Below the pieces are notes generated by a model. The model was not told where the DNA came from. It saw only the letters and a program-made list of their open reading frames with translations, and searched no databases. The translations under genes and the position numbers were made by a program. From the NCBI GenBank assembly GCA_030446765.1, contig JAUJMR010000003.1, forward strand, positions 179,499 to 243,498: a stretch of DNA of 64,000 nucleotides, in the 5' to 3' direction. Shown in pieces: positions 17,589 to 56,580 of this stretch (positions are counted from its first letter, which is position 1; each line of letters starts with the position of its first letter). The DNA comes from Chloroflexia bacterium (GTDB lineage Bacteria; Chloroflexota; Chloroflexia; Thermobaculales; Thermobaculaceae).

Positions 17589-18016
17589 CGAGCCTCGCCT
17601 CCCTCCAGATCATTCTCGTCACCATATCACCGGCGCAAGGGCGCTTGTGCACCCGGCTGCCTGCGGCGTCGGCACGAGTCTAACACCGCACCCGAGCCTC
17701 AGTCTACTTGGGTCGTACAAGCGACAGGCTGCCCCGCATCAAGGTGTTGCTCCGTCGAAGCCTAGCGTGACTAAAGTATCAGTCCAGTAATAATTCCCTC
17801 GACATCTCATGTACTCAATCCCACGTCATAGCTGCGTTTTCGGCGCATACCCGTCCGTGACGGCTCCAACGCCGCGCCGAACACCCGCGCATCGTTTCCA
17901 AAGGTGGCGTTAAGTAAGTAGATGGTGTTAATCGCCCAGCACCTGTCAGTGTGCCCGTGTGGCCTTGTGCTATACTCCCCTCGCGGACGCGCACTGTCCG
18001 CCCGAGGGGAGGAACC

Positions 18017-19486
18017 TTGCTGCCTCAGCACGTCGTGGTGGAGCTGCGGTCCGTCCTCGATCCCGAGGACGTACTCGTCGAGCGCGCCGACCTAATCAGC
18101 TACTCCATCGACGGCACGTGGCTCGAAGCGCGGCCGGACTGCGTCGTTCTGCCGCGCAGCGTGGAGCAGGTCGCCGCCGTGCTCCAGGTCGCGAACCGCG
18201 AGCGGATCCCCGTCGTCCCCCGTGGCGGCGCGTCGAACCTCTCCGGTGGCACGATACCCACGAGCGGCGGCATCGTGCTCAACCTCGCCCAGTTCAACCG
18301 CATCCTGGAGATTGATACGGACAACCTGCTCGCCGTTGTCCAGCCTGGTGTGCTCACCCACGACCTCGACCGGGCCGTCATGGCACGCGGACTCTACTAT
18401 CCGCCGGACCCTTCCAGCCTGCACCAGAGCACCCTCGGTGGCAACGTCGCGGAGAACGCGGGCGGGCTGCGCTGCCTCAAGTACGGCGTCACGAGCAAGT
18501 ACGTGCTCGGCCTGCAGTACGTCACCGCCAACGGCCAGATCGGCCGGGCTGGCGGACGCGTCATTAAGAACGTCGCCGGCTACCAGCTCGAGCAGCTGCT
18601 GGTCGGCTCCGAGGGCACCCTCGCCGTCGTCACGGAGATCACGCTACGGCTCATACCCCGGCCCCGGTTCAAGCGCACCGCGATGGCGATCTTCCCCACG
18701 CTCGAGGGCGCGAGCCAGACCGTCGCGGACGTGACGCGCGCGGGGATTGTTCCGGCCGCACTGGAGCTGATGGACCAGACCTCCATCCGCATCGTCGAGG
18801 AGGTTCGTCACATCGGCCTGCCGACAGATGCGGAGGCGATCCTGCTCATCGAGTGCGACGGCAACCACGAGGGAGCGATCGAGGACGAGATGGATCGGAT
18901 AGCCATCATCCTCCGCGCGAACGGCGCAAGCGTGCAACGGGCGCGCGACGAGGCGGCGGGCGAAAAGCTATGGGCGGCGCGCCGTGCCGTCAGCCCCGCG
19001 ACCGCGCGCCTCAAGCCGAACAAGCTCGGCGAGGACGTCTCGGTGCCCCGCAGCGCCGTACCCGCGATGATCCGCCGCTGCCGCGAGATCGCCGCGAAGT
19101 ACAATCTGCTGATGCCGGTCTGGGGCCACGCGGGCGACGGCAACGTCCACCCCAACCTGCTCTTCGACCAGCGCGACCCCGAGGAGGTCGAGCGCGTGCA
19201 GGCGGCAGCGGCGGAGATCTTCGAGGCGGCGGTCGCGCTCGGCGGCACGATCACCGGTGAGCACGGCGTGGGCATCCTCAAGCGCGAGTTTCTCGGCCTC
19301 GCCCTCGACCCGACGACGATTGCGGTCATGCGCTCCCTCAAGGCGGCGATGGACCCTAACAACATCCTGAATCCCGGCAAGATCTTCCCGGAGGGCGAGG
19401 GCAACCGGCGTGTGCCCGTGCAACTCGTGCTCACCGGCACCGGCGCGGGCGAGGCCGTGAACGCCACCGCCCCGCCCGTACGCTAG
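18017..19486 (+). CDS. glcD: FAD-binding oxidase, glycolate oxidase subunit GlcD-like
   Basis: 'CVVLPRSVEQVAAVLQVANRERIPVVPRGGASNLSGG', 'STLGGNVAENAGGLRCLKYGVT', 'PVWGHAGDGNVHPNLLFD', 'GGTITGEHGVGILKREFL'; TTG start with GAGGGGAGG upstream. Confidence 0.92.
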   Translation: MLPQHVVVELRSVLDPEDVLVERADLISYSIDGTWLEARPDCVVLPRSVEQVAAVLQVANRERIPVVPRGGASNLSGGTIPTSGGIVLNLAQFNRILEIDTDNLLAVVQPGVLTHDLDRAVMARGLYYPPDPSSLHQSTLGGNVAENAGGLRCLKYGVTSKYVLGLQYVTANGQIGRAGGRVIKNVAGYQLEQLLVGSEGTLAVVTEITLRLIPRPRFKRTAMAIFPTLEGASQTVADVTRAGIVPAALELMDQTSIRIVEEVRHIGLPTDAEAILLIECDGNHEGAIEDEMDRIAIILRANGASVQRARDEAAGEKLWAARRAVSPATARLKPNKLGEDVSVPRSAVPAMIRRCREIAAKYNLLMPVWGHAGDGNVHPNLLFDQRDPEEVERVQAAAAEIFEAAVALGGTITGEHGVGILKREFLGLALDPTTIAVMRSLKAAMDPNNILNPGKIFPEGEGNRRVPVQLVLTGTGAGEAVNATAPPVR

Positions 19487-19533: not shown

Positions 19534-20667
19534 ATGGAGACCAGATTGACCGAACAGGCAACACAGACCCAGCTCGCGGAGTACGCCGTGGTGGACGCCG
19601 AGGCGCTCCGTGCCTGGGTCGCCGCCGTGTTCAGCAGCCTCGGCGTCACCGAGGAGGACGCGCGCACGACGGCGGAGAACCTCGTCGCCTCCGATGTGCG
19701 CGGCATCGAGAGCCACGGCGTCGCGCGGCTCGACGGGTACACCGGGCGTGTGCGAAGCGGCCGCACGAAGGCACACGCGCAGCCGGTCGTCGTCCACGAG
19801 ACCCCATCGACCGCAACGGTGGACGCGGGCAACGGCCTTGGGCAGCCCGCGTCGAAGTTCGCGATGGAGCTCGCGATCGCAAAGGCGCGGCAGACCGGGC
19901 ACGGCGCGGTCGCGGTGAAGAACAGCAACCACTACGGCATCGCCGGCCACTGGGCGATGATGGCGCTGCCCCACGACATGATCGGGCAGAGCTACACCAA
20001 CTCCTCCCCGCTGCTCGTGCCGACGGGTGCGCGCGTCGCGGTCACAGGCACGAACCCGATCGCCTTCGCGGTCCCGACACTGCGCGAGCGGCCGTGGGTG
20101 CTCGACATGGCGACAACGGTGGTGCCTCGGGGCAAGCTGGAGGTCTACCGGCGCAAGGGGCTGCCGCTGCCGCTCGGCTGGGCGGTGGACGCCTCGGGCA
20201 GGCCGAGCGATGACGCCGCCGCAGTCCTCGAATCGATGGATCGGCGCGCCGGTGGCGGTATTCTCCCGCTCGGCGGGACGGCGCTGTTCTCCGGCTACAA
20301 AGGCTACAACCTTTCCGTGATGGTGGACATCCTCTCCGGCGTGCTCCCCGGTTCCGCGTGGGGCGTCCATGTGGATGGGCTGCACGGCGCGGAAAATGAG
20401 CCAGCGGGCACGGGGCACTTCTTCAGCGCCACCCGCATCGACGGCTTCCGGCCCGCCGAGGAGTTCAAGGCGGAGATGGACGCCTACATCCGGATGCTGA
20501 AAGATTCCCCCAAAGCCGAGGGCGAGGAGCGCATCTGGGTCGCGGGAGAGAGGGAGTGGGAGCTCACCGAGCAGCACGAGCGCGACGGCGTCCCCCTGTA
20601 CTACAAGGTGATCGAAAATCTCCGCGAGATCGGTGAGGACATCGGCCCCCGCTTCGATCTCGTCTGA
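19534..20667 (+). CDS. Malate/L-lactate dehydrogenase (Ldh) family oxidoreductase
   Basis: 'VGVTEEDARTTAENLVASDVRGIESHGVARL'-like N-terminus, 'VAVKNSNHYGIAGHWAMMAL', 'NPIAFAVPTLRERPWVLDMATT'. Confidence 0.92.
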   Translation: METRLTEQATQTQLAEYAVVDAEALRAWVAAVFSSLGVTEEDARTTAENLVASDVRGIESHGVARLDGYTGRVRSGRTKAHAQPVVVHETPSTATVDAGNGLGQPASKFAMELAIAKARQTGHGAVAVKNSNHYGIAGHWAMMALPHDMIGQSYTNSSPLLVPTGARVAVTGTNPIAFAVPTLRERPWVLDMATTVVPRGKLEVYRRKGLPLPLGWAVDASGRPSDDAAAVLESMDRRAGGGILPLGGTALFSGYKGYNLSVMVDILSGVLPGSAWGVHVDGLHGAENEPAGTGHFFSATRIDGFRPAEEFKAEMDAYIRMLKDSPKAEGEERIWVAGEREWELTEQHERDGVPLYYKVIENLREIGEDIGPRFDLV

Positions 20668-20811: not shown

Positions 20812-20977
20812 CCAGTACGGAATCCGGCAGAACGGTGACATACGTTGTGCGGAACCGTCGCTGTTCCTAAGCGGGACTGTCATTCCGAGCCTGCGAGGAA
20901 TCCGTGCTCCAAGTCGATGGACTCCTCCTTCCGTTCGGGATGACATGCACCGTCACACACCCGTAAACCGTATAACG
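20812..20977 (-). repeat. Dispersed nested-palindrome element, copy 2
   Basis: TGTCATTCCGAGCCTGCGAGGAATCC...CGTTCGGGATGACATGCACCGTCACACACCCGTAAACCGTATAAC, reverse orientation of the consensus. Confidence 0.8.
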
Positions 20978-20992
20978 AGGAACGAGAGACCG

Positions 20993-21478
20993 ATGCAAGA
21001 GCAAACGCAGAGCAAGGTCGGGGACGGTCGAATCGCGGCCCTCTACGCCCGCGCGCCGGAGCCATCGGACCACGACCGCACCACGTCGGAGGAGCAGCTT
21101 CGGGTGTGCCTCGCGCTCGCGCAGGACCTTGGCTACACCGTTACGGAGGCGGCAACGTACAGCGATACCGGCCCCGCCTCCACGCTGACGCGGCCCGGTC
21201 TGACCGCGCTCTTCGGCCTCATCGCCCGCCAAGAGGTCCACGCGGTGATCGTGTACACCCTCGACCGCCTCGCCCGTCCTGAGACCAGGCAGCGCGAGGT
21301 GCTGCTCCAGGAACTGCAGAAGAGGAACATGCCGCTGTACATCGCGAAGGTGCCGAACGGCTACCGCTACGATCCCGGGACTGGCAACCTCATAGCCGAG
21401 CGCGATGCCGGAGCGACGCTGGAGGACTGGCGCCCGCCGGAGTACATCGTCATCCCCCGCGAGGACCCCGTTCCGTAA
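20993..21478 (+). CDS. Resolvase N-terminal-domain-like protein (161 aa), catalytic Ser motif not recognisable
   Basis: 'RIAALYARAPEPSDHDRTTSEEQLRVCLALAQDLGYTVTEAATYSDTGPASTLTRPGLTALFGLIARQEVHAVIVYTLDRLARPETRQ'. Confidence 0.8.
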   Translation: MQEQTQSKVGDGRIAALYARAPEPSDHDRTTSEEQLRVCLALAQDLGYTVTEAATYSDTGPASTLTRPGLTALFGLIARQEVHAVIVYTLDRLARPETRQREVLLQELQKRNMPLYIAKVPNGYRYDPGTGNLIAERDAGATLEDWRPPEYIVIPREDPVP

Positions 21479-21536
21479 CTCCGCCCATAAGCGTGGGGCA
21501 AGTCCGACGCAGTGGAGCCTCGGAGCCAGCAGCACG

Positions 21537-21670
21537 AGTGATACGCCATCCGCCTGACTAGTGATGCTGTTGTCATCCCGAACGCAGTGAGGGATCCGTA
21601 ACCCCAACCACGGATTCCTCGCACGCTCGGAATGACAGTGCCCTACCGTTCAGCCGGAGTCCGTATGACT
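21537..21670 (+). repeat. Dispersed nested-palindrome element, copy 3 (best-preserved)
   Basis: AGTGATACGCCATCCGCCTGAC ... TGTCATCCCGAACGCAGTGAGGGATCC..GGATTCCTCGCACGCTCGGAATGACA ... GTTCAGCCGGAGTCCGTATGACT. Confidence 0.9.
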
Positions 21671-21836: not shown

Positions 21837-22541
21837 TCAGAGCTCGATGCGCAGGCGCTTGTTGATCCGGCCCTTGCTCTCGTGCCCGATGATCCGCACG
21901 TCGCCGACCTCCGAGGTGTTCCGCACGTGGGTGCCGCCGTCGGCCTGCACGTCCAGTCCGACGATCTCCACCACGCGCACCTGCTGGATGCCCTCCGGCA
22001 GTAGGTTGATCTTCGTGCGAATCAGGTCGGGGATCGCGAACGCCTCGGCGCGGGGGAGGATGCGCACGGAGATGGGGCGAGCGGCTTCGACCTCGCGCCG
22101 GACCTTCTCCTGCATCTCCGCCGCGAAGTCTCCGCTCATCGCCTCCAGCTCGAAGTCCATCCTGGCCCGGCCAACATCCATGTTTCCGCCCGTCACTCGC
22201 GCGCCGTAGTCCCGCCACACGATGCCGCACAGGATGTGCAGGGCGGTGTGGGCGCGCATCAGCGCGTACCGCCGCTCCCATTCGACCGCCCCACGCACCA
22301 CCTGGCCGGGCGACGGAACCCCACCCTCCAGTGCGTGCCAGACCTCCTCGCCCACTTTGCGTACGCCAACAACCGCCGACTCGTCGCTGTCCCTTTGCAG
22401 CGGGCCCCGGTCCGCCGGCTGGCCGCCCCCACCCGGATAAAACGCGGTGCGGTCCAGCAGAACCTCGTGGCCCTCGACGTGCACCACCGTCGCATCGAAC
22501 TCTCGGAGATAACTGTCCGTCTGATACAGCAGTTGTGTCAC
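21837..22541 (-). CDS. Alanyl-tRNA editing protein AlaX-like
   Basis: 'LLDRTAFYPGGGGQPADRGPL', 'RAHTALHILCGIVW', 'QADGGTHVRNTSEVGDVRIIGHESKGRINKRLRIEL'. Confidence 0.92.
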   Translation of the reverse strand: MTQLLYQTDSYLREFDATVVHVEGHEVLLDRTAFYPGGGGQPADRGPLQRDSDESAVVGVRKVGEEVWHALEGGVPSPGQVVRGAVEWERRYALMRAHTALHILCGIVWRDYGARVTGGNMDVGRARMDFELEAMSGDFAAEMQEKVRREVEAARPISVRILPRAEAFAIPDLIRTKINLLPEGIQQVRVVEIVGLDVQADGGTHVRNTSEVGDVRIIGHESKGRINKRLRIEL

Positions 22542-22978
22542 AGGTCCACTCCCACCTCATGCATTCGCCGCAGGTTCTCCGTTTCCCACGCAGCCGCCTT
22601 GTCGGGGTCCGGCGTCCACAGGTAGCGCGCAAGGTCCACGGTGTACCCCTCGCCCACCATGACGCCATCGGCGAAGAGATCTGCCCGGTGGCGCTCCGCA
22701 CCGCCCCAGCCGTACACGGCCGCGAGTCCACCCCAGCGGTTCACGACCCGCTGGCATGGGACCCGCGCCTCGACGGGCGTGCGGTACAGCACGAACCCCA
22801 CCGCTCGGGCCGCGCGCGGTGCGCCAAGCACCGCGGCCACCTGCCCATACGTCATCACCCGGCCACGCGGGATGGCCCGCACCACCTCCCACACCAGCTC
22901 GCGGAAGTTGCGCGGGCCATCGGTTGTGCGGGTAGGGTCCTCGTTCGACAGCAATTGATCCACTGATGCTCCCCTCAA
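22538..22978 (-). CDS. MGMT/Ogt-like DNA-binding protein (methylated-DNA-cysteine methyltransferase superfamily)
   Basis: 'NFRELVWEVVRAIPRGRVMTYGQVAAVLGAPRAARAVGFVLYRTPVEARVPCQRVVNRWGGLA'; PCQRV in place of PCHRV; overlaps AlaX start by 4 bp. Confidence 0.88.
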   Translation of the reverse strand: MRGASVDQLLSNEDPTRTTDGPRNFRELVWEVVRAIPRGRVMTYGQVAAVLGAPRAARAVGFVLYRTPVEARVPCQRVVNRWGGLAAVYGWGGAERHRADLFADGVMVGEGYTVDLARYLWTPDPDKAAAWETENLRRMHEVGVDL

Positions 22979-23065: not shown

Positions 23066-23197
23066 AGTGATACGCAATCGCTTGAACGATGATGCCTGTC
23101 ATCCCGAACGCGGTGAGGGAACCACACGTCGGACCACAGATTCATCTCAGGCTCGGAATGACGAGTTCTCTACTGTCCCGCCGGAGTCCGTATGAGT
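23066..23197 (+). repeat. Dispersed nested-palindrome element, copy 4
   Basis: agtgatacgcaatcgcttgaac...TGTCATCCCGAACGCGGTGAGGGA...CTCGGAATGAC...ccggagtccgtatgagt. Confidence 0.85.
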
Positions 23198-36196: not shown

Positions 36197-36324
36197 CATT
36201 CGTGAACGGCTTGAATCGTAGTGCGTGTCATCCCGAACGCGGTGAGGGATCCGTACCCTTGACCACGGATTCCTCGCACGCTCGGAATGACAGATGCCCC
36301 ACCGTATAGCCGGATTCCGTATCA
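36197..36324 (+). repeat. Dispersed nested-palindrome element, copy 5
   Basis: cggcttgaatcgtagtgcgTGTCATCCCGAACGCGGTGAGGGATCC...GGATTCCTCGCACGCTCGGAATGACAgatgccccaccgtatagccggattccgtatcac. Confidence 0.88.
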
Positions 36325-37296: not shown

Positions 37297-37428
37297 TGAT
37301 TCGGACTCCGGCTGAACAGTAGAGTATCTGTCATTCCGGGCATGCGAGGAATCTGCGGTCCGGGCTACGGATCCCTCTCTACGTTCGGGACGACACACAC
37401 CACGGCTCGAGCGGACTCCGTATAGCTC
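37297..37428 (-). repeat. Dispersed nested-palindrome element, copy 6
   Basis: cggactccggctgaacagtagagtatcTGTCATTCCGGGCATGCGAGGAATC...CGTTCGGGACGACA..., reverse orientation. Confidence 0.85.
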
Positions 37429-51343: not shown

Positions 51344-51442
51344 CATTTGTAATCCGCTTGAACCGTGGTGCGTGTCATCCCGAACACAGTGAGGGATCCG
51401 TAGCCCGTACCACGGATTCCTCGCACGCTCGGAATGACACCG
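51344..51442 (+). repeat. Dispersed nested-palindrome element, copy 8 (right end degraded)
   Basis: taatccgcttgaaccgtggtgcgTGTCATCCCGAACACAGTGAGGGATCCGTAGCCCGTACCACGGATTCCTCGCACGCTCGGAATGACA. Confidence 0.88.
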
Positions 51443-53357: not shown

Positions 53358-53496
53358 TCTTACGAACTCCAGCTAAACAGTAGGGCATCTGTCATTCCGA
53401 GTCGTCCTGCGAGGATCGGTCGTGAGGCCATGCTCGGTGCACTTTGCGCGGGGTTCGCGATGACACGAGTAGAGTTCACCCGGATTGCGTATCCGC
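53358..53496 (-). repeat. Dispersed nested-palindrome element, copy 9 (diverged)
   Basis: gaactccagctaaacagtagggcatcTGTCATTCCGAG..GCGAGGATC...CGCGATGACACGAGTAGAGTTCACCCGGATTGCGTATCC, reverse orientation. Confidence 0.7.
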
Positions 53497-53799: not shown

Positions 53800-55030
53800 C
53801 TGCGATCCAACTCCGCCAGCCTGACGTTCACCGCCTTGAGTCTGCTGCCTCGATCTCTGCTCAAGCTGGTCGTCAGTACGTCGATATCTCCTGATCTGCT
53901 GCTCGAGCGCCTGCTTCGAGGCGTTCAGTGGTGAGCCTGCCCGAGAATGATCTGCTTCTCGAGCGCCTGTCAGTCGTTCCGCAGAGGTGCAAGCTCGCCT
54001 CGATCTGCTCGATCTCCTGCTCAGCCGCCAAGATCTGCTGATTGAGCTGCGCGACTCTCGTTTGCTGCAAGCTGCTGGATCTGCTGATTGAGCAGCACCT
54101 GCTTGTCCTTCGCGGCCTGGATCTCCCGCTCCTTCTGCGTGATCTGCTGATCGACTTCCGTCAACTTGTTTTTCGCCGCCTGGAGCTGCTGCTCAAGCGG
54201 TGCGATCTGCTGCTCAAGCGTCTGCAACTGGGTCTTCAGCGAGCTTCGATCTGAGCTGCAGGAGGATCTTCACTTGCCCGACCCTCTCACCGGGAAGGGC
54301 TTTCAGGGCTGCTACCGTCGGGGGGCTCGCTTTCCTTCTGCGCGATCTGCTGCTGGACTGCTTCTGGGTGTTCAGTGGACGTGCGGAGGTAGGAAGCTGC
54401 TGCTCGTAGCGTCTTGATCTGCTGCTCGAGCGCCTGCCAGCCGTGGTCTGCGCAGCGCTGCCAGATTCTGCTCTGCCTGCGTGATCTGCTCCTGAAGCGT
54501 ACCTTCGCGTCGTTCTGGAGGGCTGCAAGCATCCGCGCTGGACCTGCTGAGCTGCGCCAGGCCGAGATTCTCGTTCGCCGAGGTGGAAGCTCCTGCTAGC
54601 TGTGCGATCTTCTGATTGACCTGTGAGCTCGTCTTGCTGGAGCGCCTGCTCGACTTGCTGGATCTGCTGATTGAGTCGAAGCTCGTCGTTTCGTCTGCAA
54701 CCGTGCTCTGCCTCCATCCTGCTCGAGCGCTTTCTTGTCGTCCTGCAGCGTTGCGAGAGTCTGCTCCAGCGCCCGCGACCTGCAGCTCGAGCACGGGCGG
54801 CGCTGTCGTTCGGTTTGCAGTGCCGTACGCTCCGCCTCTAGCTGCAGGAGCAACTCCGTCGCCGCCGCTTCCAGCGGGGGAGGTTCTGCTCGGACCATTC
54901 TGCAACTGGTTCAGACCCCGTTGCAGATGCCGTTTCCGCCCGAGCAACCGGCTGTACCACCACCATGCTCATCAGTAGCGCTGAACGAGCACGACGGAGG
55001 CGGTGATGGCTGGTTCGTCCGTCATCTGTT
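53800..55030 (-). CDS. Secreted/membrane-anchored Gln-rich coiled-coil protein, many apparent frameshifts
   Basis: 'MSMVVVQPVARAETA' signal-like; 'QTLEQQIAPLEQQLQAAKNKLTEVDQQITQKEREIQAAKDKQVLLNQQIQQLAA', 'VAQLNQQILAAEQEIEQIEASL', repeated CTGCTCGAGCGCCTG-like DNA. Confidence 0.6.
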
Positions 55031-55330
55031 GTTCTCCTTAGCCACGTTCCGTCTTGCTGTTGCCTCAACGATACTTCGCCTTGATGGTGCACCTCGTTGC
55101 GCAACCTTCTCGTGTGATTCTATGCCGCCTTTGGTTCACCCTACGTTAGTTGCCCTCCTCCCTTCTCAACGGAGAAACTGGCCAGGCAGGTGCAGTTGAT
55201 ACCCGTGAAGGTCCGGTGGCCGGTTGCACGGCTAGCTTACGGGAGCTTCTCAGATCGCAGGTAAGGCCTGTCATGACTTCCGTAATCATAGAATAGGACC
55301 CTGAGCATCGTGCAAATGAGTGATCTTTCT

Positions 55331-55348
55331 CTAGCTCATTTGAGCTAG
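55331..55348. repeat. Near-perfect palindrome CTAGCTCATTTGAGCTAG
   Basis: 8-bp arms CTAGCTCA/TGAGCTAG around TT. Confidence 0.6.
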
Positions 55349-55468
55349 GCGCTTGAAATGGTAAGCAGTCCGGTCGCTGGTAAACATGGAGCGACTGTGT
55401 TGCCCAGTATCTTCACTGCGCCAGAAAGTAATGATCAAGATGGAGTAGGAAGAATGTTGAGCTGAATG

Positions 55469-55490
55469 GGTGCCCGTGTGGTCACTATGG
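55469..55490 (+). repeat. 22-bp direct repeat, copy 1 (GGTGCCCGTGTGGTCACTATGG)
   Basis: Exact match to 55547-55568. Confidence 0.9.
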
Positions 55491-55546
55491 TACGTGCCGG
55501 AGGACTAGCAGAAGCGCTGCCTTGACGTCTATGTGGAGATGTTGAT

Positions 55547-55568
55547 GGTGCCCGTGTGGTCACTATGG
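55547..55568 (+). repeat. 22-bp direct repeat, copy 2
   Basis: Exact match to 55469-55490, period 78 bp. Confidence 0.9.
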
Positions 55569-56268
55569 GGAGAGGCAGTCGAGGCGCATCGGGGAGCGGT
55601 GGAGGCGGCCAGGCAGGTATGGCGGGGGAGGTTCGGGTCACGGGCGACGGTGCAGAATGGCGATGGGCTCTGCGGACCTCCGAAGCGCTGCCAGCTAGGG
55701 CTAATTTAAGGGAAGCCGTCCAGCTCCGCAGCGGTGACGGGTGCGGGGTGCGTCAATGCCGTCTCAGTCTACATGCGCTATTGCACCACGGGGCCGACAT
55801 CCTGATTGATCCGATAGCCGGTTGCACTAGTGGCTCCTCCCGTCCAAAGTGCCCAGATAAGGACGGGTTTCCTTGGCTACCTCGTCCTGCCCTCGCCGAT
55901 GCGGTATTCGCACTTCTGTGTAGAGTAGTCACAGTCTACCGGCATTTTCCCTGGACGGCAATGGTTATGTATCGTTCGCCGGTTACAATCTGGTCAACAT
56001 TGGGTCAACATCTGGCTAACACACGGTGGGAAGAGAAGAACACTACCGCAGGTCTGTACCTGCGGCGGCAGTCTGCTGAGGGGTGCAAGGTGACAATCCT
56101 CCGTGACACCGACCTCGCATCTTACGGATGAGCCGGTGGGCAGCCCGGATAGCCCTGAGAGTTCGACACCTTGGCGCGGATGAGGAGGAACCCACAGGAA
56201 GTCCGGTGATCGGCAAACTCTCTACACGAGACCATTGGTATACGAGGGCCGGAGCCGGTAGAAGGTGG

Positions 56269-56580
56269 TCAGACCTCGTCGTCGTCATCGCCCTCTGGGC
56301 CCTCCGACAGGCGCCCGTGAGCTGCTGGTAGCGCTTCGCGTACGCCACGTCCGCGGTGATCCCCATGTCCCACAGATCCTCGCGGTCCGGGTACTCTCCG
56401 GCGCGCGATCAGCCCAATAGTTGCCCAGGTAATACCTCTTGATGTCCTCGGGGTTCGTGACCGCGCAGTCGCTCCATCATCAGGCCGGTCAACTCTTCGA
56501 ACTCCGGCTTGAGCCGCCCGCGCTGCCATCGGTCGTAGCGGGTGACGGCCTTTTGCCAGCTGTTTGGCATCCTGTCCATA
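56269..56580 (-). CDS. Hypothetical protein, probably frameshifted
   Basis: MDRMPNSWQKAVTRYDRWQRGRLKPEFEELTGLMMERLRGHE...EGDDDDEV; acidic C-terminus. Confidence 0.35.
   Translation of the reverse strand, partial: YGQDAKQLAKGRHPLRPMAARAAQAGVRRVDRPDDGATARSRTPRTSRGITWATIGLIARRRVPGPRGSVGHGDHRGRGVREALPAAHGRLSEGPEGDDDDEV

Follow-up and report, generated by a model that had tools for sequence, protein, structure and literature searches.

What becomes of a serine recombinase domain once it has lost its serine? The question is raised by a short gene in a 64,000-nucleotide stretch of a Chloroflexia bacterium contig, referred to below as the window. An open reading frame (ORF) at 20993-21478 on the forward strand encodes a stand-alone resolvase-domain protein of 161 amino acids (aa), in which proline occupies the position of the catalytic serine. 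We consider it moderately probable that the protein is the exapted catalytic domain of a serine recombinase, probably of large serine recombinase (LSR) origin, which has lost the capacity to cleave or join DNA and acts by binding.

A recombinase fold without its nucleophile

The membership of the protein in the resolvase superfamily is clear. The Resolvase profile of Pfam (PF00239) matches residues 15-133 with 47.5 bits (E 2.7e-12), twice the curated cut-off of 23.3 bits, and the orthologs score 41-58 bits. When an AlphaFold2 (AF2) model is searched with Foldseek, serine-recombinase catalytic domains are matched with a probability of 1.0 (3bvp, 6dgc and 3lhk), and the best folds in the Protein Data Bank (PDB) are TP901-1 integrase (3bvp, E 2.8e-6) and IS607 TnpA (6dgc). 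The original prediction, made from the sequence, had described a 161-aa ORF with resolvase-domain features, and the profile score and fold match bear this out. It had also proposed that no zinc-ribbon, recombinase or C-terminal DNA-binding domain follows. Indeed, no recombinase, zinc-ribbon or helix-turn-helix domain was found in the protein by Pfam and NCBIfam scans, and nothing resembling the C-terminal helix-turn-helix of a small resolvase or invertase lies past residue 133 (Pfam, AF2 model). NCBIfam returned only weak, sub-threshold matches to IS607 TnpA (NF033518) and YneB (NF049883). The mechanical reading frame is open upstream to 20633 and runs across the first of two palindromes that flank the gene. 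The start was set at 20993 because the orthologs place it there.

These orthologs form a small family. When the 158 genomes of the class were all searched with a profile, eight copies were recovered in seven genomes: the window genome (G000), G002, G003, G005 and G006 in its own taxonomic family, and G052 and G094 in another. In the window protein a YAR motif supplies the invariant Arg, and the second residue past it, residue 22, is Pro (21056-21058, codon CCG). In gamma-delta resolvase numbering we take R20 to be R8 and P22 to be the catalytic Ser10 position. Ser stands two residues past the corresponding Arg of the YxR motif in 24 of the 24 LSRs aligned with the family, so the predicted loss of the catalytic serine holds in the alignment. 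However, the loss is not universal. The position is Pro in five of the seven genomes (G000, G002, G005, G006 and G094) and Ser in the other two (G003 and G052), the codons being a single base change apart. Could another serine have taken over? Ser25, three residues beyond the nucleophile position, is replaced by Asn in G052 and by Tyr in G094, and it was rejected as an alternative nucleophile because it varies across the family.

The rest of the catalytic site is better preserved. R20, R67, R92 and R95 (equivalents of gamma-delta R8, R45, R68 and R71) and Q35 are invariant across the six readable members that were first aligned, and the D91-R92-L-A-R95 segment is at least 90% conserved in an alignment that includes LSRs. 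In active serine recombinases the four arginines grip the scissile phosphate. Since most members have lost the Ser and retained the arginines, this family can do without the nucleophile but keeps the residues that hold the phosphate.

A further departure from known recombinases lies at the C-terminus. The AF2 model (pLDDT 84.6, with low confidence in the final ~20 residues) runs beta1-alphaA-beta2-alphaB-beta3-alphaD-beta4 and has no helix E. After beta4 there is instead a beta-hairpin and a short helix where helix E would be. Helix E of known recombinases forms the dimer/synapsis interface and leads into the DNA-binding domain. The family-specific tail in its place carries a conserved motif, GYxYDPxTG...WxPPExIxIPRE. 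Where might it have come from? Its PxGYxYDPxTG segment is similar to the beginning (GYR) of the LSR recombinase domain, with a profile score of 21.4 that was reached in none of 500 column shuffles. However, the hhalign probability for this match is about 9%, and the main hhalign alignment can also extend into the region before helix E. Because of this low probability and the alternative alignment path, the origin of the tail stays a suggestion: it is possibly an LSR remnant, helix E having been lost by internal deletion.

Distribution, selection and gene context

One carrier, G005, is Thermobaculum terrenum YNP1, a cultivated representative of the family, whose two chromosomes are 2,026,947 and 1,074,634 bp long (PMC3035366). 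Beyond the class, 400 genomes drawn evenly from the phylum contained no further member; a match in G192 is a 549-aa frame resembling ordinary large recombinases. In a phylogenetic tree the family is monophyletic (support 100/100), with a long stem branch, and is placed among recombinases of the same class. As judged from these sequence comparisons, the resolvase-like family is restricted to one lineage. Viral contigs and phage collections yielded no relative of the family and a plasmid search returned distant recombinases only; on these grounds a recent mobile or phage origin was rejected.

Several of the genera related to Thermobaculum have kept the gene at one fixed chromosomal position. G003 shares the full order FAD oxidase, Ldh_2, ORF, AlaX, MGMT-like with the window. 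G002 shares part of it, without AlaX, and its gene is split across two contigs sharing an identical 127-bp end. The two genomes of f13 have a different but mutually conserved neighborhood. A function shared with the Ldh_2 and FAD oxidase neighbors was rejected, given that Ldh_2 of T. terrenum lies elsewhere without the gene and that the f13 neighbors differ.

Purifying selection acts on the gene: a simple counting method, which is near saturation for distant pairs, gives a dN/dS of 0.31 for G000 versus G002 (dS 0.70) and of 0.19-0.35 for several other pairs. Frames are intact in G000, G002, G003, G006 and G052 at identities down to 45%. The ORF nevertheless evolves faster than its neighbors, with about 71-75% identity between G000 and G002, whereas Ldh_2 has 93%. 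A search for PF00239 found no other such gene in G002 or in the complete T. terrenum genome. Therefore, the protein is kept there without an active partner of the same domain.

Two other arrangements were seen among the carriers. In T. terrenum (L040 and L041) the family gene is paired with a neighboring GH43-like gene, and the pair is duplicated on the two chromosomes, its chromosome 1 copy being degraded. In G006 a complete LSR (L070:79-1964) lies ~600 bp upstream of the family member. A 3' fragment of a dprA-like gene, so named from its sequence, comes directly after this LSR, which suggests that an element has inserted into dprA.

The bracketing palindromes

Do the palindromes on either side of the gene have anything to do with it? 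The original prediction had noted that they bracket the ORF in opposite orientations and had suggested a functional tie. The elements themselves are real repeats. The two ~67-bp copies are oppositely oriented, show 94% mutual complementarity across 34 nt and are predicted to fold as strong hairpins. The repeat arm has 21 matches in the window against 5.9 expected, and exact half-site matches number 148 genome-wide against 0 for a reversed control. Eight copies lie in the window, nearly all intergenic (1667-1733, 20878-20945, 21571-21637, 23097-23163, 36226-36292, 37329-37395, 51373-51439 and 53390-53465). The core is about 67 bp (TGTCATYCCGARC...GGATGACA), and in several copies the flanks CCGCTTGAAC/GTTCAGTT lengthen the hairpin to ~105 bp.

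The functional tie did not survive comparison with other genomes. Within the taxonomic family of the window genome, high repeat numbers are confined to the three genomes of genus g1 (163, 113 and 92 half-site hits). Outside g1 there are two hits in G003 and none in G004, G005, G006, G052 and G094. Thus, five of the seven gene-carrying genomes (G003, G005, G006, G052 and G094) have 0-2 hits. Conversely, G001, a sister species within g1 with 92 hits, lacks the gene. No repeat copy was found around the orthologs in the stretches fetched from G002, G003, G006, G005, G052 and G094; the orthologous loci of G002 and G003 lack a flanking copy. When eight copies were distributed randomly over the window's larger intergenic gaps, some gene was bracketed in 66% of trials. 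The link was rejected on these three counts, namely the phylogenetic profile, the loci of the orthologs and the random placement: the palindromes are unrelated genomic repeats that bracket the gene by chance. Carriers of the gene that have neither the repeat nor flanking copies are also what the original prediction itself had named as evidence against its proposal. It is therefore highly improbable that the protein binds or spreads them, as had been proposed, even with two copies within 115 bp of the ORF ends.

A literature search on the repeat sequence returned nothing relevant, and no known RNA was found in the ORF flanks. Scattered genera of the class (e.g., G055, G063, G066, G102 and G476) contain many copies of a related half-site, GTCATTCCGARCGNAGYGAGGAATC, which is missing from most others. 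In some genera it forms short tandem series with a spacing of about 70-190 bp.

Probable exaptation and its alternatives

How might a recombinase domain have reached this state? The proposed ancestor is an LSR whose catalytic domain was retained. Having lost the nucleophile Ser, helix E and the DNA-binding domain, the protein very probably neither cleaves nor joins DNA and is likely to function by binding instead. The likeliest ligand would be nucleic acid or another phosphate held in the arginine pocket, and the conserved GYxYDPxTG...WxPPExIxIPRE tail may offer a surface to which a partner or ligand attaches. The idea of a domesticated recombinase-fold protein, already raised in the original prediction, is upheld in its fold, its lost Ser and a locus as stable as expected of a domesticated gene, but not in the suggested role in binding or spreading the repeat. 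A more specific version can be put forward only tentatively, and we regard it as less than likely: a chromosomally fixed pseudo-recombinase family of the Thermobaculum lineage, in which the arginine pocket is a sensor of nucleic acids or nucleotides, the C-terminus is a new module and no active serine recombinase is needed.

Several observations weigh against an exapted, non-cleaving domain. Ser is present in G003 and G052, so some members may still be active. The copy in G094 is frameshifted, and this partial copy has Lys instead of Arg at the fourth arginine position. Of the two T. terrenum copies, the first is missing its C-terminal tail and the second is broken. The class-wide profile search did not find the gene in G001 or G004. 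Taken with the damaged copies, this makes the gene dispensable, though conserved. What if it is simply an LSR remnant in slow decay, without function, its synteny reflecting position only? The damaged and shortened copies, the absences and the rapid evolution relative to neighboring genes would all fit. However, we think this unlikely in view of the five intact frames, the dN/dS of about 0.3, the invariant arginines and the conserved tail motif.

Perhaps the protein instead modulates active serine recombinases, for example through inactive mixed dimers. Intact LSRs are present in several carrier genomes, including the one about 600 bp upstream in G006, but G002 and T. terrenum have no such partner, and the AF2 model lacks helix E, the main dimer interface of known recombinases. 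The chances of this explanation are accordingly slim. Slimmer still are those of an enzyme that remains active, its nucleophile being Ser25, some other residue or, where it is present, Ser22. The intact arginine site and the correctly positioned Ser of G003 and G052 speak for such an enzyme, whereas the replacement of Ser25 in G052 and G094 and the want of both helix E and a DNA-binding domain speak against it. A defense system was rejected, as there was no PADLOC match.

An exapted, non-cleaving domain can also be set beside known systems. LSRs, or serine integrases (TP901-1, phiC31, Bxb1), share with the window protein the catalytic fold, the arginine site and the YxR, RPGL and LDRLAR motifs, and TP901-1 integrase is its best PDB match. 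In contrast to them, it lacks the nucleophile Ser, helix E, the recombinase domain and the zinc ribbon, and it has 161 aa against about 500-600. IS607-family TnpA (NF033518, 6dgc) has a similar catalytic fold and a weak sequence match. However, TnpA is encoded inside a transposon, is active as a serine transposase and carries a DNA-binding domain at its N-terminus, and none of this applies to the window gene. The YneB family of Bacillus (NF049883) is likewise a chromosomal resolvase-domain gene, but the match is 21.3 bits, far under the 175-bit cut-off, and involves the catalytic domain alone.

Exaptation of serine recombinases usually means reuse of the recombination activity, as in invertases. 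In the literature that we found, inactive serine recombinases with another role are rare, and poxvirus F16 is the clear example. F16 (OPG061) is described as a homolog of serine recombinases that has been inactivated (PMC4304020, citing Senkevich et al., 2011). It is the closest precedent, and OPG061 proteins match the window model by fold in a search of viral models. However, F16 is viral, identity in the fold alignments is 13-19%, and there is no sign of a specific relationship. The window gene, unlike F16, is bacterial and chromosomal, with its arginine cluster intact. The family thus adds a bacterial case with a cultivated member, T. terrenum, in which there is no other PF00239 gene. It also offers a natural series with and without Ser around an intact arginine pocket, and loss of catalysis with retained binding is therefore directly testable.

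Table 1. Features of the gene and its surroundings (window positions)
Feature	Position	Strand or orientation	Remarks
R20-A21-P22 codons	21050..21058	+	P22 at catalytic Ser10 position; alignments and codons
R67 codon	21191..21193	+	Equivalent of gamma-delta R45; invariant (alignments)
D91-R92-L-A-R95 codons	21263..21277	+	Equivalent of gamma-delta D67-R68..R71; six-member alignment
Family-specific C-terminal tail (KVPNGYRYDPGTGNL...EDWRPPEYIVIPRE)	21350..21466	+	Replaces helix E; predicted beta-hairpin 124-126/133-135
Dispersed palindromic hairpin repeat	20878-20945	one orientation	Upstream neighbor, judged unrelated to gene
Dispersed palindromic hairpin repeat	21571-21637	opposite orientation	Downstream neighbor, judged unrelated to gene
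FAD-linked oxidase	17951-19486	+	Syntenic upstream; Pfam; same order in G002, G003
Ldh_2 malate/L-lactate dehydrogenase	19534-20667	+	Syntenic upstream; Pfam; same order in G002, G003
AlaX-type alanyl-tRNA editing protein	21837-22541	-	Syntenic downstream; Pfam; same order in G003
MGMT-like protein	22538-22978	-	Syntenic downstream; named from sequence; also in G002, G003

Elsewhere in the window, about 2.5 kb at 53894-56409 hold no convincing gene and no Rfam match, and G+C is locally low there (56.5% at 55001-56000).
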